Positions 4,929 through 27,408 of a stretch of DNA of 33,939 bases are shown here, piece after piece. The notes below the pieces were generated by a model, which searched no databases, had not been told where the DNA came from, and was given only the letters and a program-made list of their open reading frames with translations. This DNA comes from a bacterium (GTDB lineage: Bacteria > Sysuimicrobiota > Sysuimicrobiia > Sysuimicrobiales > Segetimicrobiaceae): positions 1 through 33,939 of the forward strand of contig DASSXJ010000159.1 in assembly GCA_035703895.1 (NCBI GenBank), read 5' to 3'. The position numbers and the translations under genes are program-made. The first letter of the stretch is position 1. Each line of letters starts with the position of its first letter.

Positions 4929-5011
4929 TCGAAGGCGGGTGCCGGCAGGACATGCCGGCCGGGTACCAAAAACGTCCCCTTCGTATCCGGCGTACCTCTG
5001 AAGGTGACGTA

Positions 5012-6160
5012 ATGGAAGCCGCTGCGGAAATCCGCATGCGCAGGCAGCGGGCGGTGCTGATCCTGACCTGGGCGCTCCTGGCCTGTCTGGGTCTGTGGAG
5101 GGTGCTGCTCGGACCGTGGCCTCCGGCCATCAACCGGCTGGTGGCCGGTACGCTGGTTTACTTGTTTCTGCGCACCGGGGTGGTGATGCGGAGGGACGTT
5201 CCGGCGTGGACGGAATACGCTTTCTTGTTTCTCGATGCGGCGCTTGTCAGCGCGGCGGTGCGGTTGCTCGGGGGGATTAAGACGGACTTCTACCTCGTTT
5301 ACTTCCTGATCCTGGCCGAAGGCGTCCTGACCCTAGACCTGTGGGCGGTCGTGCCGCTCGCCGCATGGGTTTCGCTCGGGTACGTTGCGGCCACGTGGCC
5401 GGCCGCGCGGGACGCCGGGTGGCCGGTCGTCACGGCGCGTCTCTTTTTTGTGCTCCTCGTCAGCATCGGGGCGGCATGGATCGCCTTCCGGGAAGTCGCG
5501 CGCGGCCGAGTGGTTGCCTCCCTGCACGAACGTCTGGCGTTGGAAGGGGAACGGAAGCGGCTGGCCCGCGAGATTCACGACGGCATCGGTCATATCCTGG
5601 CCGCGGGCACGCAGTCCCTCGAGCTAGCGGAACGCCTGCTGCCGGCTGAACCCGAACGTGCGCGCGAGCTCCTGCCGGATGTCAAAGCGCTCCTCCGTCA
5701 GGGGCTGGACGAGATCCGGGTGCTGGTCATGGGGCTCCGCCCGGCCGGGCCGTCAGTGGGAGACGCGGTCGCGGCGGCCCGGGAGCATCTCGAGGCGCTC
5801 TCTGCACGCACCCAGATTAGAATGGAGCTCCAGAGCCGCGCTCGAGAGATTCCCCTGGCTCCGTCCTGCGAGTTCGCGTTTCGGCGGATCATTCAGGAGG
5901 CGCTCACGAATATCGTGCGTCACGCCGGCGCGAGCCTTGTGACGATCACGCTCAATCGAGACGGCGCGTTTGTCACGTGCAGCATCGCCGACGACGGGGC
6001 CGGCCTGGCCCCAGCACCTGAAGGGCGGCGGCTCGGCGCCGGGCTGCAGCACATGCGCGAGCGCGCGGCGGAACTCGGCGGCACGTTCGACATTGCGACG
6101 GCTCCTGGAGGGGGGACCACGGTGACGTTCACGGTACCGTGTCTGGCGGACGCCTCGTGA
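5012..6160 (+). CDS. Sensor histidine kinase, NarL/DesK type with multi-pass membrane sensor
   Basis: 382 residues. Residues 12 to about 163 form five or six membrane helices with almost no extracytoplasmic loop; then a short coiled coil leads to a HisKA_3 domain with the phospho-acceptor H189 (REIHDGIGH), and a C-terminal HATPase_c domain with N300 (EALTNIVRH) and the D327/G329-G331 box (DDGAGL). The layout is that of DesK-like kinases, which sense membrane state from within the bilayer, rather than of ligand-binding periplasmic sensors. ATG at 5012 follows AAGGTGAC. It overlaps the response-regulator gene by four bases. The nearness of acyltransferase and acyl-CoA ligase genes makes a lipid signal plausible, but this is inference. 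Confidence 0.9.
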   Translation: MEAAAEIRMRRQRAVLILTWALLACLGLWRVLLGPWPPAINRLVAGTLVYLFLRTGVVMRRDVPAWTEYAFLFLDAALVSAAVRLLGGIKTDFYLVYFLILAEGVLTLDLWAVVPLAAWVSLGYVAATWPAARDAGWPVVTARLFFVLLVSIGAAWIAFREVARGRVVASLHERLALEGERKRLAREIHDGIGHILAAGTQSLELAERLLPAEPERARELLPDVKALLRQGLDEIRVLVMGLRPAGPSVGDAVAAAREHLEALSARTQIRMELQSRAREIPLAPSCEFAFRRIIQEALTNIVRHAGASLVTITLNRDGAFVTCSIADDGAGLAPAPEGRRLGAGLQHMRERAAELGGTFDIATAPGGGTTVTFTVPCLADAS

Positions 6161-6831
6161 CGCCGGATCCCGCTCCGAGCAAGATCCGCCTGTTGGTGGC
6201 CGACGACGAGAGCGTTCTGCGGAGAGCGCTCACGCGGCTCCTGGCGATGGCCGAGGACATCGAGGTGGTCGGTGAGGCGGCCGACGGTCACGAGACCCTG
6301 GAACTCGCGGTCTCCAGGAAGGCCGACGTGGTCTTGATGGACATCGGGATGCCGCGCCTCGACGGCATCGAGGCGACGCGCCGGCTCGCCGAGCGCTGCC
6401 CCAATGTCAAGGTTGTCATCTTAACCATCTACTCTGATGACGACCGCGTGTTTCGGGCGCTGCAGGCGGGCGCGCGAGGGTATCTCCTCAAGGACGCCAC
6501 GCCCGAAGACATCCTGCGCGCGGTCCGCGCGGTTCACGCGGGCGACGGGATCCTCCATGCCGGGCTCGTCGGCCGCGTGATGCAGGAGTTTGCCAAGGTG
6601 TCCCGGTCTGGGGGCGCAGACCCGAGCGTGTTTGAAGCGCTGACGCCACGGGAGCGAGAGGTCCTCGAACTGCTCGCCGCCGGGCTGCGCAACCAGGACA
6701 TCGCCGGCCGCCTCTCCATTACGGAAAAGACGGTCAAACACCACGTGAGCAGCATCCTGTCCAAGCTACAGGTCAATCATCGAACCGAGGCGGCGCTGCT
6801 GGCGTCGAAGGCCGGGCTGACAGGCCGCTAG
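6157..6831 (+). CDS. NarL/FixJ-family response regulator
   Basis: 224 residues: an N-terminal receiver (acidic pocket VADDES, phospho-acceptor D62 in [12 protein letters not shown], conserved T and K in ILTIY and LLKDA) and a C-terminal LuxR-type helix-turn-helix ([15 protein letters not shown] ... [13 protein letters not shown]). It is the partner of the kinase upstream, with which it shares a GTGA overlap; GTG at 6157 is chosen for that overlap and a GGCGGA site. A GTG at 6139 is an alternative adding six residues. Its stop codon shares CTAG with the stop of the convergent acyltransferase gene. Targets are unknown; the flanking lipid genes are candidates. Confidence 0.9.
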
Positions 6832-7454
6832 ATGGCTCTGGCAAGGCTCGGGTGAGGAGGTTCATCCGCGAGGTCCGCGATCGCCTGCATGACCCGGGCG
6901 GTCAAAGCCGTCTGTGCAGATCGTGACAGGTCACCTTGAGGTATCACGGCTTCTCCGATCCTCACCTCGATCCTCCCGCGGTGGGGGAAACGCGTGCCGA
7001 GCGGCCAGACATCGTAGGTTCCCCTGATGCCGATCGGGATGACGGGAACACCGCTGCGCACCGCGAGGAAGGCCAGACCGTCACGGGCGGGCTGCAACCG
7101 GCCGTCCCGGCTGATTCCCCCCTCGGGGAAGACGAGCAGGGCGTCTCCTCGACTCAGCCGGTTGAGACATTCCTTGATGGCGCGGAGGTCGAACTGGCCT
7201 CGCTGTATCGGTATGGGATGGAACGGCCGGATGAGGGCTCCGAGCACGGGCATCGTCAGAAGTTCCGCCGCCGCAAGGAACGAGACGCGGCGCTGGAGGG
7301 CCGCCCCGAGCGCCACCGGGTCCATCTGGCTGGGGTGATTTGCCGCCAGAATCACGGGTCCTGTCCGCGGAAGGTGTGCCTCCCCGATGACGCTGAGCCG
7401 AAAACCCGCCCTGAGAAGCCGCTTCAGGACCCACCGGATCAGGGCGTATCTCAT
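6828..7454 (-). CDS. 1-acyl-sn-glycerol-3-phosphate acyltransferase (PlsC family), short form
   Basis: 208 residues, typical of short bacterial PlsC. The catalytic NHxxxxD motif is N39-H40...D45 (ANHPSQMD), the glycerophosphate-binding FPEGG is at 109-113, and a hydrophobic N-terminal stretch (ALIRWVLKRLL) would anchor it to the inner membrane. It acylates lysophosphatidic acid or a related acceptor with acyl-ACP or acyl-CoA. ATG at 7454 is chosen because AAAGGGG lies eight bases upstream; an ATG at 7472 has no ribosome site. It is divergent from the acyl-CoA ligase gene across about 264 bases and converges with the response regulator. Confidence 0.88.
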   Translation of the reverse strand: MRYALIRWVLKRLLRAGFRLSVIGEAHLPRTGPVILAANHPSQMDPVALGAALQRRVSFLAAAELLTMPVLGALIRPFHPIPIQRGQFDLRAIKECLNRLSRGDALLVFPEGGISRDGRLQPARDGLAFLAVRSGVPVIPIGIRGTYDVWPLGTRFPHRGRIEVRIGEAVIPQGDLSRSAQTALTARVMQAIADLADEPPHPSLARAI

Positions 7455-7718: not shown

Positions 7719-9410
7719 ATGGAGCGGATCTGGCTCAAGAGTTACGAGGCGGGCGTGCCGGCGACGTTATCCTATCCAAAGGTCTCCGTTTACCATTTTC
7801 TCGAGGAGAATGCCCGGCGGTTCCCCAATCACGCGGCCGTCCTCGTGGCCACGTCGAAATTCTCCTCGGTCCTTACCTACCGCCAGATTGACCAGCTGGC
7901 GAACCGGTTCGCGAACGCGCTGATCTGGTTGGGCATCAAACCCGGCGACCGGGTGGCGATCCATCTGTCGAACTTCCCCCAGTTCGTCTTCGCGTTCTAC
8001 GGAGCGCTCAAGGCGGGCGCGACCGTCGTGGCGGCCAACCCCCTCTACAAGGGACACGACCTCGAGACCGTACTGGCGAACTCCGGCGCGAAGTGCATCC
8101 TCACCTTCTCACGGCTCATGCCGAATCTGAGCCCGGTCGTGGCGAGGACCAGCATCGAGTCGATCATCGTGACCGAGCCGTACGATTATTTCCCGTTCCC
8201 CTGGAAGCAGCTGGCCTGGTACAAGCTGCGGAAGGAGACGCAGTCGAGCGGCGTGCTGCGGCTCTCCGCCTTGCTCCGAAGCGCATCGGCAAATCCCCCG
8301 GGGGTGTCCGTGGGGCCTGACGACGTGGCGATTCTCCAGTACACAGGGGGCACGACCGGGGTCCCCAAGGGCGCCATGCTGACCCACCGGAACCTCGTCG
8401 CCAACTTCACCCAGATGCGGAACTGGCTGACCGACCTCAAGGAAGGGCACGAAGTCTTTCTCAGCGTCGCGCCGTTCTTCCACGTCTACGGACTCACCGT
8501 CGCGCTCAACACCGCGATCAGTGTCGCCGCGACCGTGGTGTTGGTGCCGATGCCGCTGATGGATGCCAAGCTGATCGCCGAGATGATTGCCCGCCACCAC
8601 CCGACGATCTTCCCGGGCGCCCCCGTCATCTATCTCGCGATCAACCAGCTCAAGAACGTCCAGCAGTACGATCTCAAGTCGATCAAGGTCTGCGTCAGCG
8701 GCTCGGCGCCGCTCCCGGTCGAGGTGCAGGCCGAGTTCGAGCGATTGACCGGTGCCAAGGTTGTCGAAGGGTACGGCCTCACCGAGGCATCTCCCGGGAC
8801 CCACGTCAACCCGGTCTACGGCACGCATAAGGCCGGAAGCATCGGCCTCCCGCTGCCGGACACCGACGTCCGGATTGTCGACGCGGAGACCGGCGAGCGG
8901 GAGATGCCTCAGGGTGAAGCCGGCGAGCTCGTGATCCGCGGCCCGCAGGTCATGAAGGGGTACTGGAACGCCCCCGAGGAAACCGCGTCGACCCTCCGGG
9001 ACGGCTGGTTGTACACCGGCGATATCGCCCGGATGGACGAGGATGGGTATTTCTTCATCGTCGACCGCAAGAAGGATATCGTCATCGTGGGCGGGCTCAA
9101 GGTCTACCCTCGCGAGATCGAGGAGATCCTCCACGAGCACCCCAAGGTCAAGGAAGCCGCGGTCACAGGCGTGACGCACAAGGTGCGGGGCGAGTTGCTG
9201 ATCGCGCAGGTCGTCCTCAAGGACGGCATCGCGGACGATCCCAAGCAGGTGCGGCGCGAACTACTAGACTACCTCAGACAGCGCCTGGTGCCGTACAAAG
9301 TGCCGCGCCGGATCGAGGTCGTGTCTGCGCTGCCCAAGACGTGGATCGGGAAAGTGCTCCGGCGCGAGATTCGCGAGACGGTGGCCGCCCGGGCGGACGA
9401 CGACGCGTAG
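7719..9410 (+). CDS. Long-chain fatty-acid-CoA ligase (acyl-CoA/acyl-adenylate synthetase)
   Basis: 563 residues, usual for FadD-type ANL enzymes. The AMP-binding P-loop begins at Y208 (YTGGTTGVPKGAMLTH), the GYGLTEASP motif is at 351-359, the YTGDIA and DRKKDIVIVGGLKVYPREIE hinge blocks follow, and the C-terminal catalytic lysine is K545 (WIGKVLRRE). It activates a fatty acid with ATP and CoA in the cytoplasm. The ATG at 7719 follows AGGGAAGGGGG. It opens the rightward eight-gene lipid operon: the next gene's ATG directly abuts its TAG. In this setting it may feed acyl groups to the PlsC-type acyltransferase encoded three genes downstream rather than serve beta-oxidation; no beta-oxidation genes are nearby. 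Confidence 0.92.
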   Translation: MERIWLKSYEAGVPATLSYPKVSVYHFLEENARRFPNHAAVLVATSKFSSVLTYRQIDQLANRFANALIWLGIKPGDRVAIHLSNFPQFVFAFYGALKAGATVVAANPLYKGHDLETVLANSGAKCILTFSRLMPNLSPVVARTSIESIIVTEPYDYFPFPWKQLAWYKLRKETQSSGVLRLSALLRSASANPPGVSVGPDDVAILQYTGGTTGVPKGAMLTHRNLVANFTQMRNWLTDLKEGHEVFLSVAPFFHVYGLTVALNTAISVAATVVLVPMPLMDAKLIAEMIARHHPTIFPGAPVIYLAINQLKNVQQYDLKSIKVCVSGSAPLPVEVQAEFERLTGAKVVEGYGLTEASPGTHVNPVYGTHKAGSIGLPLPDTDVRIVDAETGEREMPQGEAGELVIRGPQVMKGYWNAPEETASTLRDGWLYTGDIARMDEDGYFFIVDRKKDIVIVGGLKVYPREIEEILHEHPKVKEAAVTGVTHKVRGELLIAQVVLKDGIADDPKQVRRELLDYLRQRLVPYKVPRRIEVVSALPKTWIGKVLRREIRETVAARADDDA

Positions 9411-10703
9411 ATGAGCGACATCCCGAGGACCGGCGTGTTCGCGGCCGGCTCCGCCCCGGCCGACGCCTCCACGCGCCGCGTGCCCTTCACGGAGCTCGTC
9501 TGGCTCGGCCTGTTCTGGTTTGCGATGAGCTTCCACTGGGGCGCGCTCCTTACCGTGGTCATCCCGGCTGAGGTCCTCCGGTTCGTGCCCGAGGCGCAGA
9601 AGGGCGCGTACCTGGGACTGCTGCTCGCGTCCGGCGCGGTCATGGCGATGGTGGTCTCGCCGATCTCTGGGGCCCTGAGCGACCGCTCCACGCTCGCCAT
9701 GGGACGGCGCAGGCCGTTTGTCATCGCGGGCGTCCTCGTCAACTGCGTAGGAATCGTGGCCATGCGATACGCGCCCACGTACGCGGCATACGTCGCGGCG
9801 CTCCTGGTTGTCCAGACTGCCACGAACTTTGCCGGGGGCGCGTTCAACGGCCTCATCCCGGACAAGATTCCCCCCTCGCAGCGCGGGCTGACCTCGGGGG
9901 TGATGGGCTTCATGATGATGGTCGGCACGATCTCCGCAGCGCTCCTCGCGGGGAATTTCGTCGGCCACGGGCAGACCGGGATCGTCTATTTCATTGACGC
10001 CGGGCTGTTCCTCGCGTGCACCGCGATCATGGTCTCGCAGATTCGGGAGGTGCCGCTCAAGTCGCGGCCGCCGCTCACGCTCCCAGCGTTCGCTCGCTCG
10101 TTCTGGATCGACCCGCGCCGGTACCCAGACTTCGGCTGGATGTTTCTGACGCGGGGCCTCGTGATGCTCGGCTTTTACACGATGATCACGTTCCTGCAGT
10201 TCTTCGTGAAGGACACGCTGCACCTGACGGTCAAGGAGGCGGCGCGCACGACCGGCATCCTGAGCGCGATCACGATTGCCTCCGGCACGATCGTCGCGCT
10301 TGCGGCCGGGTGGATCTCCGACCGGATCGGGCGGAAGGGGATCGTCTCCGTCTCGGGGATCTTCCTCGCGCTCACGAGCCTCGGGCTCCTCCTGCAGCCG
10401 CCGTTCTCCACGCTCGTCTGGATCGCCATCCTGTTCGGGATCGGGTATGGGGCGTTCACGAGCGTCGACTGGGCGCTTGCGATCGACGTGCTGCCGAATC
10501 GCGACTCCGCGGCGAAGGACCTCGGTATCTGGGCGATCGCCAACACGCTGCCGCAGGTGCTCGCCCCGATCGTCGCGGGGCCGATCCTCGACGCGTTCAA
10601 CCGCCGCGCGCCGAACCTCGGCTACACGGTCGTCTTCGCCGGCGCGATCGTGTACGTCATGCTCGGCTCGATCTTCGTTTGGAGGATCAAGGGAGCGCGG
10701 TAG
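9411..10703 (+). CDS. MFS transporter, SLC45/sugar-cation-symporter-like
   Basis: 430 residues with about twelve membrane helices. The loop between helices 2 and 3 carries the MFS signature in the form SGALSDR...GRRRPF, and a second copy SDRIGRKG follows in the other half. The later stretch AFTSVDWALAIDVLP is typical of the SLC45/sucrose-symporter-like branch. The cargo is unknown. The ATG immediately follows the ligase stop codon with no strong ribosome site, which suggests translational coupling; the next gene starts in its stop codon. In an operon of lipid genes the cargo could be a lysolipid or a head-group precursor, as with LplT beside Aas, but the sequence alone does not show it. Confidence 0.88.
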   Translation: MSDIPRTGVFAAGSAPADASTRRVPFTELVWLGLFWFAMSFHWGALLTVVIPAEVLRFVPEAQKGAYLGLLLASGAVMAMVVSPISGALSDRSTLAMGRRRPFVIAGVLVNCVGIVAMRYAPTYAAYVAALLVVQTATNFAGGAFNGLIPDKIPPSQRGLTSGVMGFMMMVGTISAALLAGNFVGHGQTGIVYFIDAGLFLACTAIMVSQIREVPLKSRPPLTLPAFARSFWIDPRRYPDFGWMFLTRGLVMLGFYTMITFLQFFVKDTLHLTVKEAARTTGILSAITIASGTIVALAAGWISDRIGRKGIVSVSGIFLALTSLGLLLQPPFSTLVWIAILFGIGYGAFTSVDWALAIDVLPNRDSAAKDLGIWAIANTLPQVLAPIVAGPILDAFNRRAPNLGYTVVFAGAIVYVMLGSIFVWRIKGAR

Positions 10704-11626
10704 TGGCCGCCGGCAGGCGCACGTGGCCCCGGGTGGGCTTGTGGGTGGGCGCGGGTCTCGCGGCGGCGGGGGCCGCGATCGCCCTCTCCTCGTTCGCCAC
10801 CGCGTATCTCACCGTCCATCCGCTCCCGTGGTCGCGCTACCGGCGGTCCTGGTGGACGCCGTCCGAACGCGACCGCGATGCCCGGCCCGTCCGATTTTCG
10901 AGCGCCGACGGCATCGTGCTCGCGGGGCGGTATCTCGACCGGCATGCGGACGCGACGATCGTGGTGTGCCACGGCTGGCCGGGCAACAAGGACGATATGC
11001 GCGACCTCGCGGACGTCCTGGCGGATGCGGGGTTCAACGTCCTCGCCTTCGACTTCCGGAGCTGGGGCGAGAGCGATCGGGGGCCGGTCACCCTCGGCTA
11101 CCGCGAGGCCCAGGACGTGCTCGGGGCGGTCGCGTTCGCACAGGCACGGCGTGCGGAACGCGGGCACCGGATTGGCGTCCTCGGGCTGTCCATGGGCGGG
11201 GCCGCGTCGCTCCTCGCGGCGGCGTCGTGCCCGAAGATCGAGGCCGTCGTCGCGGACAGCAGCTACACGCGCCTGGACCGCGCGGTCAGCGGCGTGTTCC
11301 GCAGCCTCTGGGGTCCCGCCGCGCCGCTCTTCGACGTCCCGACCCGATGGGCGGGGGAGCGCTTGATCGGCACCGCGATGCCGGACGTCTCACCCGTCCG
11401 GGCGATCGAGCGGCTGAGCCCCCGGCCTGTGCTGATCATCCACGGCACGCACGACCGGCTCATCGATGTGCGCGAGGCTCAGGCCCTCTACCGGACGTCG
11501 CACGACCCGAAGGCGCTCTGGCTCGTCGAGGGTGCGGACCATGGCGAGACCCGCAGGATAGCGCCACAGGAGTACGATCGCCGCGTCGTGGGCTTTTTCC
11601 AAGAGCATCTTGGGGGACCTCCGTGA
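10703..11626 (+). CDS. Membrane-anchored alpha/beta hydrolase
   Basis: 307 residues. An N-terminal hydrophobic helix (about 11-38) is followed by an alpha/beta-hydrolase core: oxyanion region CHGWPGN near residue 90, nucleophile S163 in GLSMGG, acid in HGTHDRLID, and histidine in GADHGE near the end. These place it with the Hydrolase_4/lysophospholipase-like group of serine hydrolases. GTG at 10703 overlaps the transporter stop (TAGTG) and has AAGGGAG upstream. Its stop overlaps the next start as GTGA. In E. coli ynbC a hydrolase of this type is fused to a methyltransferase; here the two parts are separate genes of one operon. Substrate unknown, probably a lipid ester. Confidence 0.85.
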   Translation: MAAGRRTWPRVGLWVGAGLAAAGAAIALSSFATAYLTVHPLPWSRYRRSWWTPSERDRDARPVRFSSADGIVLAGRYLDRHADATIVVCHGWPGNKDDMRDLADVLADAGFNVLAFDFRSWGESDRGPVTLGYREAQDVLGAVAFAQARRAERGHRIGVLGLSMGGAASLLAAASCPKIEAVVADSSYTRLDRAVSGVFRSLWGPAAPLFDVPTRWAGERLIGTAMPDVSPVRAIERLSPRPVLIIHGTHDRLIDVREAQALYRTSHDPKALWLVEGADHGETRRIAPQEYDRRVVGFFQEHLGGPP

Positions 11627-12891
11627 CGCTGCCGTACGCGCGCACGGCGCCCGCGGTCACAGATTTCAAGCCGCCGAAGCCCAACCGAGCGTTCATCCGC
11701 GGCATGCGCCTCGTCAACCTGTTCTACGGGCTTTGGCGGGCGAAGTTGGTGTGCGACGCGCGGGATCTCGAAAAGCTGAGACGGCTGCCCCCGGGGGTCA
11801 TCATCACCCCCAACCACTCCGACTACGCCGACGCGATGGTCGTGACCGAACTGGGCCGGAGGGCCGACCGCTACTTCAACTTCATGGCCACGCGGGAGAG
11901 CTTCGACGCCGGGCACGGGCTCCACGGGCTGGCGATGCAGTGGCTCGGCGGGTTCTCGGTGAACCGCGGCGGGGAGAACGGGCGGTGCCAGCAGGTCGCC
12001 AAGGACGTCGTCAAAGCCGGCCGGTACGACCTCCTCATCTTCCCGGAGGGGGAGATCTACCTCCTGAACGATCTGGTGATGCCGTTCAAGCCCGGCGTCG
12101 CGATGCTCGCGCTCGACGTCGCGAACGAGAACGCTAAAGAGGGCCGTTCCGACAAGCCGGTCACGATCGTCCCGGTCGCGATCAAGTACCGGTACCTGGT
12201 CGACATCCTGCCCGCGGTGAGGGAGACCGTGGAGCGGCTCGAGGCGACGATCTTCGGCGGGCCGCGCCCCGGCGCTCTGTACGACCGGATCTCCGCGCTT
12301 GGGGTCGAGTTGCTCAACCGCAAGGAGCAGGAGTACGGCCTCCGTCCGGATCCAGCCGGCGACCTCTACGCCCGGGTCGAGGCGGTGCGGAAGCACCTGC
12401 TCGAGACCCTCGAGCGCCGCTACCTCGGCAAGGTGCGCGACGAGTTCGCGTTCGACCGCGCGCGCCGCCTGATCATCCACATCCTCGAGGAATTGGCGCA
12501 TCTCGAGGGCCGCGCCGATCTCCCCGAGCATGAGAAGGCGGCGGCCGCCGCCGACCTGCGGCGCGATCTCGGGTGGGCGCAGACCGCGGCCCGGTCCGTC
12601 TCCTTCGCCGAGGACTACCTGATCGCGCAGCCCACCCCGGAGCGCCTCGCGGAGACGCTGGCCAAGCTCGAGCGCGAGGTGTACGGCCGTGAGGCGTTCC
12701 CGCCTAAGGCGAAGCGGCGCGCCACAGTCAAGATCGGCGACCCGATCGATGTCCGCGGCTACTTGGCCGAGTACGCTGAGCGCAGGTTGCGCAAAGAGGC
12801 CATCCTCCGTCTCGTCCGCGATCTCCAGCAGAGCATTCAGTCGATGCTCGACGCGCTCAACGTGGAGACCGACGGGGAGCCACCCCGGTGA
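11623..12891 (+). CDS. PlsC-domain acyltransferase with long C-terminal helical extension
   Basis: 422 residues, about twice a usual PlsC. The N-terminal part holds the acyltransferase motifs: N64-H65...D70 (TPNHSDYAD), an arginine in NRGG near 114, and FPEGE at 140-144. Residues from about 200 onward contain no motif that I recognise; they are charged, mainly helical and probably cytoplasmic, with a final segment GDPIDVRGYLAEYAERR that resembles the closing part of other acyltransferase domains. GTG start in a GTGA overlap. It likely transfers an acyl chain to a glycerophosphate-type acceptor. It differs clearly from the short PlsC encoded at 6828-7454. Confidence 0.85.
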   Translation: MTLPYARTAPAVTDFKPPKPNRAFIRGMRLVNLFYGLWRAKLVCDARDLEKLRRLPPGVIITPNHSDYADAMVVTELGRRADRYFNFMATRESFDAGHGLHGLAMQWLGGFSVNRGGENGRCQQVAKDVVKAGRYDLLIFPEGEIYLLNDLVMPFKPGVAMLALDVANENAKEGRSDKPVTIVPVAIKYRYLVDILPAVRETVERLEATIFGGPRPGALYDRISALGVELLNRKEQEYGLRPDPAGDLYARVEAVRKHLLETLERRYLGKVRDEFAFDRARRLIIHILEELAHLEGRADLPEHEKAAAAADLRRDLGWAQTAARSVSFAEDYLIAQPTPERLAETLAKLEREVYGREAFPPKAKRRATVKIGDPIDVRGYLAEYAERRLRKEAILRLVRDLQQSIQSMLDALNVETDGEPPR

Positions 12892-13499
12892 CGTCTGCTG
12901 GAGATCCATCCAGCCGGGCGCTGTACCATTATCTCAAGGCGGGCACCCAGCGGGCGCTCGATCCCGTGGTCGCGCGCGTGTTGATCGGCATCCATCCCAA
13001 CGTCCTTACCGGTCTCGGCGTCCTCTCGGCCGCCGCTGCGGGGGGGTGTCTCTGGCGGGGCTGGTACCTCGCCGCGGTTCCGTGCATCCTGCTCCGCATG
13101 TTGCTAAACGTCGCGGACGGTCAGGTCGCCCGCAGGACCGGGAAGACCTCGCGGGCGGGCGCGGTTTGGAATGAGTTCTCGGACCGCCTCGCCGATATCG
13201 GCCTCTTCGGCGGAGCCGCGCTCGCCGCCCCGGCCGGGCTGGCGCTGGGCCTCGCCACGCTCGCGGCCGTTGAGCTGGTGTCCTACCTGGGAATTCTGCC
13301 CCAGACCCTTGGGCTCGCGCGCCAGTACGGAGGCGTCTCCGCCAAGATCCCGCGCCAGATCGCCCTCATGATCGCCGCGGCGGGCCAGGGCATCTGGGGC
13401 GGTTCGTGGTTGCGGGTCGGGCTCATTGTCATCGCGCTCGGCGCGCTGCTCACGGTCGGGCAGCGCCTCCGCAGCGCGTTCCGTGAGGCGCGGGCGTGA
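12888..13499 (+). CDS. CDP-alcohol phosphatidyltransferase, YnbA-like
   Basis: 203 residues with about five or six membrane helices. The CDP-alcohol phosphotransferase motif is present as N74-x2-D77-G78-x2-A81-R82 ... G91-x3-N95-x3-D99. In the canonical motif all four marked acids are aspartate; here the first and third are asparagine. As I recall, E. coli YnbA has the same two changes (ALNALDG and ILNETGD), so this is a subfamily trait rather than decay. The reaction would be displacement of CMP from a CDP-activated lipid by an alcohol. GTG start in a GTGA overlap, GGGGAG upstream. It is followed directly by a CdsA-like gene that could make its CDP-lipid substrate. Confidence 0.88.
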   Translation: MTSAGDPSSRALYHYLKAGTQRALDPVVARVLIGIHPNVLTGLGVLSAAAAGGCLWRGWYLAAVPCILLRMLLNVADGQVARRTGKTSRAGAVWNEFSDRLADIGLFGGAALAAPAGLALGLATLAAVELVSYLGILPQTLGLARQYGGVSAKIPRQIALMIAAAGQGIWGGSWLRVGLIVIALGALLTVGQRLRSAFREARA

Positions 13500-14404
13500 C
13501 CGCGATCTTGTTCCGCAGCCTCGCGATCTATGGGGGCGTCTTCCTCGGCGTCGGGGTCGCGATCGCCGTGATGCGGCTCCGTGGTGCCGCGCGCGGCCGG
13601 GCCGGCCTCACGGAGTTCGAGGCCCGAACGCTCTCATGGATGGTCCTCGCCCCGCTCATCATCGTCCCGGCGTACCTCGGCGGTTGGTGGCTCGCCGGCG
13701 TCGTCGCGCTCATCGCCCTGCAGGGGATGCGCGAACTGTTCAGTGTGACCGGCGTCAACGGATACGGCACATGGGCGTCCATCTGGGTGCTTGTCACCGT
13801 GCTCCTGGCGCAGATCTATCCGGAGGGGTTCTACGTCATCCCGGGCTTCGTGATCATCCTGACCTCCGCGCTCCCGGTCCTCCGGAAGCGGACGACCGGC
13901 GCAGTCTATGAAGTCGGGGTGGTCGTCTTCGGCCTGATGTACCTCGCCTGGCTGTTCGCGCGCCTCATCTTCCTGAGGGCGGAGCCGGGCGGGTTCGGCC
14001 ACGTCGTCTTCATGGGGACGTGCGTCGCGATCAACGACAACGCGTCGTATTGGGCCGGCAAGCTCTTCGGCCGTTACAGTCGACCGCTCATTCCGGAAGT
14101 CTCTCCGGGGAAAACCGTGGTGGGATTCTTGGGCGGTGCCGCGGCGACGATCGCGGCCGGGCTGCTGTTCCACTTCGCGATCCCTGCGGTGAGCCGGGCG
14201 CAGGTGCTCGTGCTCGCGACCTTGATCGCGCTCACGGGCCCGATGGGCGATCTCGTGATCTCGGTGATCAAGCGGGACCGGGGCGTGAAGGACATGGGGA
14301 CGATCTTACCCGGACACGGCGGCGTCCTCGACCGCTTCGACTCGATCCTGTACACGACCCCGATCTACTACTTCGCGCTCGCGGTCTTGGGCCTGAGGCG
14401 GTGA
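13496..14404 (+). CDS. Phosphatidate cytidylyltransferase, YnbB/CdsA-like
   Basis: 302 residues, polytopic. The CDP-diacylglycerol synthase signature is complete near the C-terminus: SVIKRDRGVKDMGTILPGHG followed by GVLDRFDS, with the metal- and substrate-binding D, H and D residues. CdsA enzymes make CDP-diacylglycerol from phosphatidic acid and CTP in the inner membrane. GTG start in a GTGA overlap with the YnbA-like gene. This gene is unlikely to be the general housekeeping cdsA, because that gene normally sits beside uppS, dxr or rseP, while here it forms part of a dedicated lipid operon. Confidence 0.9.
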   Translation: MTAILFRSLAIYGGVFLGVGVAIAVMRLRGAARGRAGLTEFEARTLSWMVLAPLIIVPAYLGGWWLAGVVALIALQGMRELFSVTGVNGYGTWASIWVLVTVLLAQIYPEGFYVIPGFVIILTSALPVLRKRTTGAVYEVGVVVFGLMYLAWLFARLIFLRAEPGGFGHVVFMGTCVAINDNASYWAGKLFGRYSRPLIPEVSPGKTVVGFLGGAAATIAAGLLFHFAIPAVSRAQVLVLATLIALTGPMGDLVISVIKRDRGVKDMGTILPGHGGVLDRFDSILYTTPIYYFALAVLGLRR

Positions 14405-14417
14405 GGGAGGTGCGCGT

Positions 14418-15317
14418 GTGAAACGGCTTCCCACCTACGAGGACCTGCGGCGCCCGCTTCCCCCGTGGCACCCCAAGGCCTGGTACTTCGGAGCGCAGTC
14501 GCTGATGCTCCGCACCGTCGGCCGGACCGCCGGCGGCATCGACCTCGGGTACCGGCACGGGTTCAACTCGGGGGTGATGCTCGACTACGTGTACGAGAAC
14601 CGCGCCCGGGGGCGGTGGGGAATCGGCGCGCTCATCGACCGGGGGTTCTTGAATGCGGTCGGCTGGCGCGGGATCCGCTTACGGAAGGAGCACCTGAAGC
14701 AAGTCCTGCGGGGGGTGATCGAGGAGCGGCGGGCGCGCGGACAGGCGACGCATATCGTCGACCTGGCGGCCGGGGGTGGCCGGTACCTGCTCGAGGTGTT
14801 GAGCGAGGTGGGACCGGGCGGCGTCACGGCGCTGCTCCGCGACCTGCGGCGCGAGGGACTCGATGAGGGCCGCCGGCGCGCGGAGGCGCTCGACCTGCGC
14901 AACGTCCACTTCGAGCCCGGCAACGCGTTCGATCCCCAGGAGCTTGCGGCCCTCTCACCGCGGCCCGATATCGTGGTCACGTCCGGCCTCTACGAGATCA
15001 TCCCCGACGACGCGCTGATCCGGCCGCACTTTGGCCGCGTCCGGCGGATCCTCGCGCCAGACGGGACATTCATCTTTACCGCGCAGCCGTATCACCCGCA
15101 GTTGGAGATGATCGCGCGCGTGCTCCCGGGGCTGGACGGAGGGCCGTGGGTCATGCGGCTTCGGTCGCTCGAACTGCTCGAGCGGTGGGCGCGCGAGGGC
15201 GGCTTCACCCGCTGGGACGCGGTCGGGGATCCCTGGGGGATCTTCTACGTGGTGACCGTCTGCGGGGGGGCGGCCGCGCCCGTTGCGCCGGATCTTCGCC
15301 CGGGGCCGGTGCGGTGA
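14418..15317 (+). CDS. Class I SAM methyltransferase, YnbC C-terminal (Methyltransf_20) type
   Basis: 299 residues. The N-terminal part has a characteristic block (GFNSGVMLDYVYENRARGRWGI, then DRGFLNAVGWRGIRLRK) that I associate with the Methyltransf_20 family, named for proteins in which it is often fused behind an alpha/beta hydrolase. The SAM-binding motif I is VDLAAGGGRYLLEV with D115 and G119-G121, and an aspartate in TALLRDLRREG follows. GTG start with GGGAGG seven bases upstream. The product or head group that it methylates is not known. Its stop overlaps the next start as GTGA. Confidence 0.82.
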   Translation: MKRLPTYEDLRRPLPPWHPKAWYFGAQSLMLRTVGRTAGGIDLGYRHGFNSGVMLDYVYENRARGRWGIGALIDRGFLNAVGWRGIRLRKEHLKQVLRGVIEERRARGQATHIVDLAAGGGRYLLEVLSEVGPGGVTALLRDLRREGLDEGRRRAEALDLRNVHFEPGNAFDPQELAALSPRPDIVVTSGLYEIIPDDALIRPHFGRVRRILAPDGTFIFTAQPYHPQLEMIARVLPGLDGGPWVMRLRSLELLERWAREGGFTRWDAVGDPWGIFYVVTVCGGAAAPVAPDLRPGPVR

Positions 15318-16153
15318 AGCTCGCGGAGCTCCGGCCGATCAGGGCGGCGATCCAGTTCAACGACCGCCTGAATGCGCACCAGGTCGGCGAGCAGGCGACC
15401 GTGATCGCGTTCAACATCGTGTATGCGATGTTTCCGCTGGTCCTCGCGTTGACGGCGGTCGGGGGATTTATCGTACGCGGCGCCATCGCGAGGGGGCAGC
15501 TCCTCGCGGCGATCCGCGTCGCGTTCCCCGCGCAGCTGGCGAAAGAGATGTCCGACGTGATCAACACCGCGGGCAACTATCCCGGGATTATCGGGCTCGT
15601 GGCGTTCATCACGCTTGTCGTCGCTGGGTCGAACCTCTTCGCCGCGATCGAGGTCGCGTTCTGCCGGATCTTCGGTGTGCCGCCGCGCGGGATCGTGCAC
15701 CAGCGCGCCGTCGCCGTCCTGATGATCCTGGTGTTCTCCGCGCTGCTGGTCGTCGCGGTCGCCGCCTCGGACGTCGCCGTGTTCCTGCGGGGGAGCCGCA
15801 TCGGCCCGGACGGCGCGCACCCCACCTTGCCGGGCGGCCGGTACCTCGGTCTCGCCGGCGGCTGGGCGTTTGTGGTGCTGATGCTGCTGGTGCTCTACCT
15901 GGTGATCCCGAACGCCCGGATCTCGCTTGGGGTCGTCTGGCCGGGCGCGGTGCTGGCCGGGACGGCGCTGCAGGTCACGACCCTGGTGTTCCCGCTCTAC
16001 ATCCGCTACTTCGCGGGCTTCAACCGCTTCGGCGACGCGTTCAGCCTGGTCTTCCTCATCATGACGTGGGCCTATTTCCTCGGGTTCATCTTGCTCGCCG
16101 GGGCGGAAGTCAACGCAATGCGGTACGCAAAGGCTGCGGGGCGTGCTACGTGA
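15314..16153 (+). CDS. YihY/BrkB (UPF0761) family inner-membrane protein
   Basis: 279 residues with about six membrane helices. The family marks are the first helix region GEQATVIAFNIVYAMFPLVL, a middle LLVLYLVIPNARIS block and the C-terminal FGDAFSLVFLIMTWAYFLGFILLAGAEVNA motif. YihY proteins are widespread; their function is unsettled (the old ribonuclease BN name is wrong). Starts at GTG in a GTGA overlap with the methyltransferase gene, so it is the last gene of the lipid operon; its end overlaps the convergent lyase gene by eight bases. A role in moving or assembling the lipid made by this operon is only a guess. Confidence 0.88.
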   Translation: MKLAELRPIRAAIQFNDRLNAHQVGEQATVIAFNIVYAMFPLVLALTAVGGFIVRGAIARGQLLAAIRVAFPAQLAKEMSDVINTAGNYPGIIGLVAFITLVVAGSNLFAAIEVAFCRIFGVPPRGIVHQRAVAVLMILVFSALLVVAVAASDVAVFLRGSRIGPDGAHPTLPGGRYLGLAGGWAFVVLMLLVLYLVIPNARISLGVVWPGAVLAGTALQVTTLVFPLYIRYFAGFNRFGDAFSLVFLIMTWAYFLGFILLAGAEVNAMRYAKAAGRAT

Positions 16154-24572: not shown

Positions 24573-24606
24573 CTTGGGCCTGGCGCCGCAGACGGGGGGA
24601 TGCGCG

Positions 24607-26442
24607 ATGCCCGCATTGCTCGTTCGTCGGCACCTGGTTTGTCCCGCCTGGGTTTTTCTGATCGTGCTGGCGCTCGCGCTCCCCGCGCGCGCGCAGACCG
24701 CTCCGCCGCCCACCTTCGAGCTTCCGGAAGTGGAGGTGCCGGGGAAGCGGCCCCAGCTGCCGTCCACGACGCCGGCGTCGATCAGCGTGATCACTTCGGA
24801 TGAGCTCGCGCGGCTCGGGGCGTTGACCGTTGCCGACGCCCTCCGTGTGCTGCCGGAACTGCGGATCAAGCAGAGCGGTGGGCCGGGTTCGCTCACGACG
24901 GTGAGCATCCGCGGTTCGTCCTCCGCGCAGGTGCTGATCCTCCTCGACGGCGTGCCCCTCAACCGTCCCGACCAGGCCAGCGTGGACCTGAGCACGCTGC
25001 CCATCCAGAATGTTGAGCGCATCGAGGTGCTGCGCGGGCCATTCTCGGCGATTTATGGAAGCGCGGCGCTGGGCGGCGTCATCAACATCGTCACGCGGGC
25101 GGCGCCGCTGACACTCGTGTCCACGCGGTACGGGTCATATGGTCTCGCCGGCAACCTCCTCTCGGTCGGCGGCCGGGTGGAGAACCTGACGTACCTTGTC
25201 CAGGGCATCCTGAACTCGAGCGGCGGGTTCGCCCCGGACACGGACTTCTCGAACACGACGACGATGGCGAAGCTCCGGTGGCAGACCGCGGACGATGCCG
25301 CCGCGACCCTGACGGTCAATCGGCTCTGGCATGCCACCGGCGCCCCGGGACCGCTCCCGGTCCAGGACCAGGACCCGCTCGCACGCCTCCGAGAAGACCG
25401 GACGCTCGTGGATCTTTCATGGCGGAGCGGAAAGGCCGACAGTCCGGGCATCCTGGCGCGCCTCTACTATCTCGAAGATGATGTCAACTTCAACCTCCCA
25501 AAGTTCGCCTTCCAGTCCGAAGACACGGCGCACCTGTGGGGCGTGCAGGCCCAGGTTGTCTTGGTGCCGTGGTCGGGCCACCTCCTGACGCTCGGCGGGG
25601 AGTACCAGGGACAGACGATCGCCCACAGCGATAATGCCCCCTCGCCGTTTTCGAACCAGGGATACGACCTCGCGTTCTACCTCCAGGACGATTGGCAGAT
25701 TGCGAGCGGCATACTTCTGTCGCTCGGGGTCCGAGAAGACAACTTCCAGATGTACGGGAGCCAGGTCGACCCGCGCATCGGCGTAGTTGTTGTGCTCACC
25801 GACCGGCTCATCCTGCGCGCCGGCGCGGGCAGGACATTCCGGGAGCCCACGTTCGACGAGCTGGCCCCGGCACTGTTTGGCAACCCATCGCTTCAACCCG
25901 AGACCGCGTGGTCCTACGATCTGGGCGTCGAGTATGCGCTGGCGCCCGGTTTGGCACTGCACCTCACCGGGTACTATACGGACGCGACCAACCTGATCAC
26001 GTCGGCCCCGCCGCTATTCGTTCCGCTGAACGTCGGCCATGCGATCGTGAACGGCGCCTCGATCGAGATCGTGGGCCAGGTCGCCGAGCAATGGTTCGTG
26101 CGGGCTAATTTCACCAATCAGCTGGCGCGCGACGCGAACACCGGCCTCGACGTGATCTATATCCCCCGCCAGCTGGCGAACGTTGAGGTGAGCTACCGAT
26201 GGGCGCCCGGGAGCACCGCGACCGCGATCGTAAGCTACGTCGGCGACCGTTTCAATGATCCTGCGAACAAGGAACGGGTGCCGGGGTACTGGCTCGTCGG
26301 TCTCAACGTCGCGTGGGGGTTTGCGGCGGGATACACGCTGCAGGCCGGCGTCAATAACCTCTTCGACGTGAGCTACCAAGAGTCGCTCCACTTTCCCGAG
26401 CCAGGGAGGACGGTCTACATGGGTCTCTCGAAGACGTTCTAA
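24607..26442 (+). CDS. btuB: TonB-dependent outer-membrane cobalamin receptor
   Basis: 611 residues, typical for BtuB. A signal peptide ends ALPARA|Q (after residue 29), a TonB-box-like ELPEVEVPG (38-46) follows, then the plug (SVITSDELARLG, VSIRGSSSAQVLILLDGVPL, EVLRGPFSAIYGSAALGGVI), and a beta-barrel ending in VYMGLSKTF with a terminal aromatic. The riboswitch upstream gives the substrate: cobalamin or a related corrinoid. ATG at 24607 with GGGGGG upstream. The TonB gene starts four bases after its stop, so both respond to the riboswitch. Confidence 0.93.
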   Translation: MPALLVRRHLVCPAWVFLIVLALALPARAQTAPPPTFELPEVEVPGKRPQLPSTTPASISVITSDELARLGALTVADALRVLPELRIKQSGGPGSLTTVSIRGSSSAQVLILLDGVPLNRPDQASVDLSTLPIQNVERIEVLRGPFSAIYGSAALGGVINIVTRAAPLTLVSTRYGSYGLAGNLLSVGGRVENLTYLVQGILNSSGGFAPDTDFSNTTTMAKLRWQTADDAAATLTVNRLWHATGAPGPLPVQDQDPLARLREDRTLVDLSWRSGKADSPGILARLYYLEDDVNFNLPKFAFQSEDTAHLWGVQAQVVLVPWSGHLLTLGGEYQGQTIAHSDNAPSPFSNQGYDLAFYLQDDWQIASGILLSLGVREDNFQMYGSQVDPRIGVVVVLTDRLILRAGAGRTFREPTFDELAPALFGNPSLQPETAWSYDLGVEYALAPGLALHLTGYYTDATNLITSAPPLFVPLNVGHAIVNGASIEIVGQVAEQWFVRANFTNQLARDANTGLDVIYIPRQLANVEVSYRWAPGSTATAIVSYVGDRFNDPANKERVPGYWLVGLNVAWGFAAGYTLQAGVNNLFDVSYQESLHFPEPGRTVYMGLSKTF

Positions 26443-26445
26443 CTG

Positions 26446-27408
26446 ATGATCAGGAGCACATCGAGATCCCGCTTTCTCATCGGTGCCTGCTGCGTGCTTC
26501 TTGCCGCAGCCGCGGGCCGGGCCGCATGGAGAGGTGCGCCTCCGCCGCCTCTGACCACCGGTCCGGCCGCGGCCGGTGGTCTCGCTCCTCAGCGCGGGGA
26601 CACTAGGGGTCCAACCGCAGACCAGGAGGGAGCCGCTGCGCCCGGTACCTCGCTGTCGCAGCCGGCACCGCCGGAACGCCGGGTCCAGAAAGAAATTGTT
26701 CATCCCGCGGACACACCGAAGCGGACCGCGCGCCCCGCGACTTCGTCAGGCGCCGGGCAACCGTCGCCCCGTTCATCCGCATCGTCGCATGGCACCGCCG
26801 CGTCGCAGTTCACGCCCGCACAGCACCCCCAGCCACCTTCCCATTCGCCGCAGGGTTCAAGGCGCGACCCTCAGCCTGCACGCGATCCCGGCGGCTCGGA
26901 ATCCGCTCCCCGACAATCTCAGACGCCCGCGGCCGGCCAGGGCCCGGCGCGTTCAGAAGACGGCGGTAGAGCGGGAGCCGGGTCCTCCGGAGCGACGACC
27001 ACAACCGGAAGCGGCGAGGCCGGAAGTGGAGGTGTGGCGGGTGATGCCTCCCCTGCAGTGAGCACCCCCGGCGGTTCCACTGGAATCACTCCTCATGTCG
27101 TGCCGCCGCGGGTTATCAAGTCGGACGGAACAGAGTATCCGGTCGACGGCTTTCGACTGACGGTGCATCGGCAGGATCTTGGATCTGCGCTCTCGGTCGA
27201 AGGCGCGGAGGGCGCCGTGGGGGTGCGGGCCTTAGTCCAGGCCGATGGGACGGCGGCGAAGGTCGAGATTATCGCGCCCTCTGGTTCTCCGATACTGGAC
27301 GGGGCGGCCGCGGCGGCGGTGCGCCGGTGGCTGTTTGCTCCGGCGACTCGAGACGGCGTGCCGATCGAAGCGTACGTGACGTTCAAGATTCGCTACGTCG
27401 TCCGGTGA
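26446..27408 (+). CDS. TonB-family energy transducer, dedicated to the cobalamin receptor
   Basis: 320 residues. One N-terminal membrane helix (about 9-27), a long Pro/Gly/Ser/Arg-rich periplasmic linker (28-225) and a C-terminal TonB domain (about 260-320; the final block AAVRRWLFAPATRDGVPIEAYV is diagnostic). TonB passes inner-membrane energy to the outer receptor. The linker is unusually poor in the usual PxP/KP repeats and rich in Arg, Ser and Gln. No ExbB or ExbD gene is in the window. ATG at 26446 directly behind btuB with no clear ribosome site, so translational coupling is likely. The gene converges with and overlaps the next one by 16 bases. Confidence 0.85.
   Translation: MIRSTSRSRFLIGACCVLLAAAAGRAAWRGAPPPPLTTGPAAAGGLAPQRGDTRGPTADQEGAAAPGTSLSQPAPPERRVQKEIVHPADTPKRTARPATSSGAGQPSPRSSASSHGTAASQFTPAQHPQPPSHSPQGSRRDPQPARDPGGSESAPRQSQTPAAGQGPARSEDGGRAGAGSSGATTTTGSGEAGSGGVAGDASPAVSTPGGSTGITPHVVPPRVIKSDGTEYPVDGFRLTVHRQDLGSALSVEGAEGAVGVRALVQADGTAAKVEIIAPSGSPILDGAAAAAVRRWLFAPATRDGVPIEAYVTFKIRYVVR

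Follow-up and report, generated by a model that had tools for sequence, protein, structure and literature searches.

What does an operon do in which homologues of the orphan ynb genes of E. coli stand among genes for an acyl ligase, an acyltransferase and a transporter? Such an operon occupies positions 7719-16153 of the window, by which we mean the whole stretch of 33,939 nucleotides analysed here (contig DASSXJ010000159.1, GenBank assembly GCA_035703895.1, family Segetimicrobiaceae). The eight open reading frames listed below all lie on the + strand, and Pfam confirms the family of each as named in an earlier note on this DNA, which had also recognised a lipid operon built around YnbA and YnbB and its homology to ynbABC of E. 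coli. We favor, with moderate confidence, the possibility that the operon serves regulated phospholipid repair or remodelling and consists of two modules, one of them adding a head-group branch of the arc1/ynb type. The source genome (G000; 4.38 Mb, 97% complete) belongs to a small phylum with 43 genomes in the searched set.

7719..9410, +: FadD-like acyl-CoA (or acyl-ACP) ligase; PF00501 AMP-binding 340 bits, YTGGTTGVPKG motif; 64-66% identity in loci L119/L120
9411..10703, +: MFS transporter; PF07690 MFS_1 107 bits; 67-69% identity in L119-L121
10703..11626, +: alpha/beta hydrolase with an N-terminal hydrophobic anchor; PF12146 Hydrolase_4 68 bits, GLSMG motif; 53-58% identity in L119-L121
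11623..12891, +: long PlsC-type acyltransferase, 422 amino acids; PF01553 58 bits, NHSDYAD and FPEG motifs; 64-65% identity in genomes G006/G009
12888..13499, +: homologue of the YnbA/Arc1A family of CDP-alcohol phosphatidyltransferases (CAPTs), metal site N74-D77-N95-D99; PF01066 CDP-OH_P_transf 38 bits
13496..14404, +: YnbB, CdsA-type phosphatidate cytidylyltransferase; PF01148 CTP_transf_1 186 bits, full CdsA signature; 38% identity to E. coli YnbB
14418..15317, +: Methyltransf_20 (YnbC C-terminal type) S-adenosylmethionine (SAM) methyltransferase, unfused; PF12147 276 bits; 42% identity to the E. coli YnbC C-terminus
15314..16153, +: YihY/BrkB membrane protein; PF03631 124 bits; 63-64% identity in L119/L120, there directly 3' of PlsC

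The genes had been described as packed by 4-base GTGA overlaps. This holds for four of the seven junctions (hydrolase/PlsC, PlsC/YnbA, YnbA/YnbB and methyltransferase/YihY), but FadD and MFS abut with zero gap, the MFS and hydrolase genes overlap by a single base (TAGTG; the hydrolase begins at 10703) and 13 bases separate YnbB from the methyltransferase. Catalytic motifs are intact in FadD, the hydrolase, both PlsC proteins (the second is introduced below), YnbB and the methyltransferase, and YihY scores above the cut-off of TIGR00765 (80.4 versus 73.15 bits).

Two modules and their counterparts in related genomes

A search with the long PlsC found three same-family relatives, G006, G009 and G011. 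In G006 and G009 the gene order is PlsC2-FadD-MFS-hydrolase-PlsC-YihY, with 53-69% protein identity to the window, and PlsC overlaps YihY directly. The operon of G011 (L121, G011:C82, 3325-8162) is reduced to two PlsC2 genes, MFS, hydrolase and a shortened long PlsC, and neither FadD nor YihY was found beside it. At the operon, YnbA, YnbB and the methyltransferase are missing from all three, and matches to Methyltransf_20 and YnbA are absent elsewhere in these genomes too. The operon of the window is thus composed of two parts, a FadD-MFS-hydrolase-PlsC-YihY set and a YnbA-YnbB-methyltransferase trio lying between PlsC and YihY, and the trio-free sets in the relatives identify the trio as a separable cassette. 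Furthermore, because the hydrolase is present in trio-free relatives without the methyltransferase, it is not the split-off half of YnbC.

The position of the trio could reflect gain by insertion or loss in the relatives, and these genomes fit either. In a methyltransferase tree the window sits on a long branch that names no donor, and a search for Methyltransf_20 across the 43 genomes of the source phylum found a match in G000 only. A same-genus genome (G002) has exactly YnbA-YnbB-PlsC, as three genes, at a different place. Whether the genes would prove scattered in close relatives had been named in the earlier note as decisive for its proposal, and the answer is divided: the trio is missing from their operons, and the other genes stand together in G006 and G009. 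That five genes occur together in same-family genomes (53-69% amino acid identity), and the Ynb trio across at least 11 phyla, argues that the operon is not a chance assembly. Contamination of the contig is unlikely, as the family contains homologues of the operon neighbours that are 53-69% identical and keep the gene order.

The conserved unit also extends upstream of FadD, where three genes had been overlooked by the earlier note; all of them accompany the operon in relatives as well.

4952..6160, +: histidine kinase with four hydrophobic segments; HisKA_3 + HATPase by Pfam; L119-L121 and Chloroflexota L035/L037 carry homologues next to the operon
6139..6831, +: response regulator pairing with the kinase; receiver + LuxR/GerE domain by Pfam; homologues score 326-336 bits in L119-L121 and 138-140 bits in L035/L037
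6828..7565, -: short PlsC-type acyltransferase (PlsC2), oriented divergently to the operon and probably starting near 7454; Pfam; HX4D and FPEG motifs

The window and each of the three relatives have the histidine kinase and LuxR-type regulator next to the operon, and this pair is the likely regulator of the operon. PlsC2 is 58-68% identical to its counterpart in L119-L121, which heads the homologous operon there.

The Ynb core across phyla

An alignment search with the methyltransferase yielded at least 568 relatives, and the best 80 of these, used for a locus survey, place the cassette in at least 11 phyla or phylum-level groups. Among the 53 well-covered loci of this survey (6 kb on each side), YnbA is present in 47, YnbB in 45, the hydrolase in 48 and PlsC in 42; PAP2 occurs in 38 and DSP in 37. 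A YnbA-seeded scan of genome contigs gave no matches, the methyltransferase alignment being what did yield relatives. To remove the bias of seeding with the methyltransferase, a YnbA profile was run over 386 genomes, ten of which scored at least 121 bits, the next best reaching 83 bits at most. All ten have the N-D-N-D site and an adjacent YnbB, nine have PlsC close by (the exception is L125/L155) and three have the methyltransferase in the cluster. The next twenty CAPTs below this set are all D-D-D-D, and no YnbB lies within 1.5 kb on either side of any of them. Taken together, the YnbB and PlsC counts in the YnbA-seeded genomes define YnbA-YnbB-PlsC as the commonest Ynb core, with the methyltransferase optional. 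Streptomyces Methyltransf_20 proteins (L053, L054) lack YnbA, YnbB and PlsC in their neighbourhood, which may mean that the methyltransferase has another use.

Given these frequencies, PlsC is a usual member of the Ynb set and not, as had been proposed from the E. coli cluster, an addition; E. coli is an exception. A ligase, too, occurs in other Ynb clusters. Ligase-ACP-PlsC fusions with PlsC as the C-terminal part lie beside YnbA/YnbB in L029, L035, L049 and L158, and L037 and L040 encode proteins of that size matching both FadD and PlsC. An MFS-PlsC-ligase fusion (L067) and an MFS-PlsC fusion (L034) are likewise found beside Ynb genes. In Chloroflexota L035/L037, one stretch holds kinase, regulator, YihY, ligase-PlsC, hydrolase, methyltransferase, YnbA and YnbB. 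These fusions and Chloroflexota clusters are a separate line of evidence for a functional link between the Ynb trio and the ligase, transporter, PlsC, YihY and regulator pair, and the domain make-up of the fusions (ligase, MFS, PlsC) places FadD, MFS and PlsC as a split lysophospholipid-repair set resembling Aas/LplT. The Chloroflexota clusters also contain a VTT-domain (DedA-type) protein (L035, 3247-3849) and a flotillin-like protein (L037, 14215-15606).

The Pseudomonas loci have six genes, in the order YnbA, hydrolase-methyltransferase, PAP2-DSP, a small membrane open reading frame, PlsC and YnbB. PA2541, PA2537 and PA2536 of P. aeruginosa are annotated as a CAPT, an acyltransferase and a phosphatidate cytidylyltransferase. 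These numbers fall within antagonism resistance cluster 1, arc1A-F (PA2541-36), five of whose six genes are phospholipid-related (PMC8926400). Setting the six-gene loci against the published description of arc1, we strongly infer that the cassette corresponds to P. aeruginosa arc1. The window, in which YnbA, YnbB, PlsC and Methyltransf_20 are clustered, has the cassette as well, with a PlsC of a different subfamily. It had been stated that the ynb genes have no proven product; none is established, but a function is on record for what is apparently the same cassette, namely that of arc1 against type VI secretion system (T6SS) lipases (PMC8926400, PMC12663445). Specifically, both arc1A and aas mutants show raised sensitivity to these lipases (PMC12663445).

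These results bear on the conclusion of the earlier note that the operon makes and exports a methylated or otherwise modified lipid. A methylated, exported lipid is a possible product of the operon, but for the product of the core the word methylated had to be dropped, given an optional methyltransferase. The fuller version of this idea, in which the operon builds and exports a special lipid product (a methylated phospholipid or a lipid-linked natural product) and has no role in repair or defence, we consider unlikely. It is true that the ligase, PlsC, CdsA, CAPT, methyltransferase and transporter can make a linear pathway, and that the methyltransferase has a generic class I SAM fold nearest natural-product O-/C-methyltransferases, although the structure names no substrate. 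However, module 1 (the FadD-MFS-hydrolase-PlsC-YihY set) occurs alone in relatives without CAPT, CdsA and methyltransferase, the methyltransferase is absent from the cluster in seven of the ten YnbA-seeded genomes, the arc1 phenotype is one of resistance (PMC12663445), and the spread of the cassette over at least 11 phyla points to a general membrane function. A role in anti-phage defence was rejected, the sole match in a search with defence models being a weak, generic methyltransferase.

The metal site and acceptor pocket of YnbA

YnbA scores above the PF01066 gathering threshold (38.1 against 22 bits) and its predicted structure has the CAPT fold; it lacks the four-Asp signature D1xxD2GxxAR...GxxxD3xxxD4, for which it reads N74-D77-N95-D99. 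The Asp residues of this motif hold two metals, Mg-1 being held by D1, D2 and D3 and Mg-2 involving D3, and D4 is presumed to act as the base (PMC6506517, PMC4634129). Asn occupies both D1 and D3 in 53/53 YnbA sequences and in 71 of the 72 complete sequences of a fuller set; counted by column in that set, D1 is Asn in 73/73 and D3 in 72/73. The D3 exception is a Ser, in a second YnbA copy in Lysobacter. That locus (L095) carries two copies, at 8431-9096 and 14073-14876, the second being N-D-S-D. All 20 canonical CAPTs scored alongside are D-D-D-D. Our literature search, which was not exhaustive, found no description of a family-wide N-D-N-D site, and one for ynbA/ynbB biochemistry found nothing on lipids.

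One reading of these substitutions is that YnbA is a CAPT that has lost catalysis and serves as a regulator or sensor by binding CDP-lipid or lysolipid, the chemistry being left to PlsC, YnbB, the hydrolase and the methyltransferase. Two of four metal ligands are swapped in nearly every sequence, and a D-to-N change at D4 of MtPIPS abolishes activity (PMC4634129), yet YnbA keeps D4. Moreover, D2, D4, both glycines and two arginines (R156 and R193; n=53) are invariant, which goes beyond what is expected of a pseudoenzyme, and YnbA is always paired with its own CdsA-type enzyme. We therefore regard a dead YnbA as improbable.

The arginines are informative in a second respect. They align with MtPIPS R155 and R195, which bind the phosphate of the acceptor inositol phosphate (PMC4634129), and the position of the inositol-contacting K135 of MtPIPS is Gly in 50/53 YnbA sequences. 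Retention of the former and replacement of the latter predict, at the level of sequence, an acceptor for YnbA that is phosphorylated but is not inositol phosphate. Consistent with a relationship to phosphatidylinositol phosphate (PIP) synthases, the AlphaFold model of YnbA (pLDDT 94) matches them in Foldseek with probability 1.00, the TM-score to mycobacterial PIP synthase (PgsA1) being about 0.77.

It is also conceivable that YnbA is simply the ordinary phosphatidylglycerol (PG) or phosphatidylinositol synthase of its genome and the operon one for housekeeping phospholipid synthesis. Searches of G000 found a CAPT other than YnbA nowhere, and the arc1 genes have been called homologues of PG-synthesis enzymes (eLife 2022). 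Against this, the motif is N-D-N-D; G006 and G009, without YnbA, also show no CAPT, so YnbA is not the housekeeping enzyme of the lineage; several YnbA-positive genomes carry standard CAPTs besides; G000 encodes another CdsA at a different place (C284); and the core phospholipid enzymes are encoded outside arc1 (PMC8926400). In profile comparison YnbA matches PIP synthase at 4e-20 and the PG-phosphate synthase PgsA at 0.037, and it scores 66 bits with the NCBIfam PIPS model NF045883, under the 170-bit cut-off. We judge a housekeeping role very improbable. Ordinary synthesis of PG or phosphatidylethanolamine, the outcome that the earlier note had set against its own proposal, finds no support in a YnbA that is nearer to PIP synthase than to PgsA or Pss and has a non-canonical motif.

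As a separate observation, no CAPT other than YnbA was found in G000 and most genomes of its order with PF01066, pgsA and G011-type queries, and all 14 control genomes were positive with the same queries. A divergent enzyme, a search miss or an unusual phospholipid route could each account for this. A possible second CAPT on G000:C275 turned out to be an ABC-transporter permease.

A broader proposal, which we put forward tentatively and regard as rather doubtful, is that the YnbA/Arc1A family is a class of CDP-lipid transferase in its own right, whose metal site consists of two Asp and two Asn. Together with its own acyltransferase and CTP-activating enzyme, it would make an undescribed phospholipid in at least 11 phyla that helps cells resist phospholipases, and in the window it would have been captured by a lysolipid-repair operon.

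A working model

In our favored scenario of repair with an added head-group branch, module 1, together with the divergent PlsC2 and the two-component pair, would act as a split system resembling LplT/Aas. The MFS protein, proposed by gene position as a lysophospholipid flippase, would carry lysophospholipid, or a lipid related to it, to the inner leaflet; FadD would activate fatty acid and PlsC would re-acylate. The anchored hydrolase may trim damaged lipid and YihY may move or organise membrane lipid; a literature search for YihY as a lipid transporter found none. In module 2, YnbB would activate a phosphatidate-type product with CTP, YnbA, at its atypical metal centre, would pass the phosphatidyl group on to an acceptor that carries phosphate, and the methyltransferase would modify the product of YnbA. 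The outcome would be a membrane lipid that aids resistance to lipase-type damage, as for arc1 and aas in P. aeruginosa, with the linked kinase and regulator presumably coupling the operon to its trigger.

Several observations weigh against this model. The full eight-gene set is present in only one genome of the phylum, G000. No LplT model is among the NCBIfam matches of the window MFS, which also shows no resemblance to the MFS of L067 in sequence comparison. The PAP2-DSP (YnbD) phosphatase is not in the window cluster. With regard to arc1, the match was made by gene number, order and description, not by sequence; its role against lipases is auxiliary to that of arc3 (PMC12663445), and the first arc1 study did not find a single effector accounting for it (PMC8926400).

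At 24574-27408 the window also encodes a TonB-dependent receptor and, next after it, a TonB C-terminal protein, which suggests an outer membrane in this lineage.

Comparison with known systems

The operon joins three lines of work, on the orphan ynb genes of E. coli, on the arc1 lipase-resistance cluster of P. aeruginosa and on lysolipid repair of the Aas type. New are the two-module anatomy, together with natural operons that lack the trio; YnbA-YnbB-PlsC as the core; the link between arc1/ynb and Aas that the fusions provide; and the N-D-N-D site as a family-wide feature of YnbA. A shared N-D-N-D enzyme that has kept its acceptor-phosphate site turns the question of the arc1/ynb product into a concrete enzyme assay and into a search for a lipid in E. 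coli K-12.

Like the window, arc1 combines a YnbA-type CAPT, YnbB, PlsC and methyltransferase and hydrolase parts (as seen in the Pseudomonas loci) with a lipid function and two-component control (Gac). In contrast to arc1, the window has neither PAP2-DSP nor the small sixth gene, its methyltransferase is unfused, its long PlsC and hydrolase are non-orthologous, and it adds the ligase, MFS and YihY; it also has a linked HisKA_3/LuxR pair, whereas arc1 is under Gac/Rsm. E. coli K-12 ynbABCD shares YnbA (30% identity, N-D-N-D), YnbB (38%) and the methyltransferase half of YnbC (42%) with the window, but YnbC is fused, YnbD (PAP2-DSP) is present, and PlsC, ligase and transporter are not in the cluster. 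Mycobacterial PIP synthase (PgsA1) and YnbA have the fold and the acceptor-phosphate arginines in common and differ in that YnbA has Asn at D1 and D3, has Gly at K135 and falls below the PIPS family cut-off. Finally, LplT/Aas flips and re-acylates lysophospholipids (PMC11416262). Its domain set of MFS, acyl ligase and PlsC is found in the window too, as separate genes, although the MFS is not LplT by family model, the ligase is unfused and the hydrolase and YihY are extra. Our claim, by analogy, is that FadD, MFS and PlsC of the window would work like LplT/Aas, not that they are members of that system.

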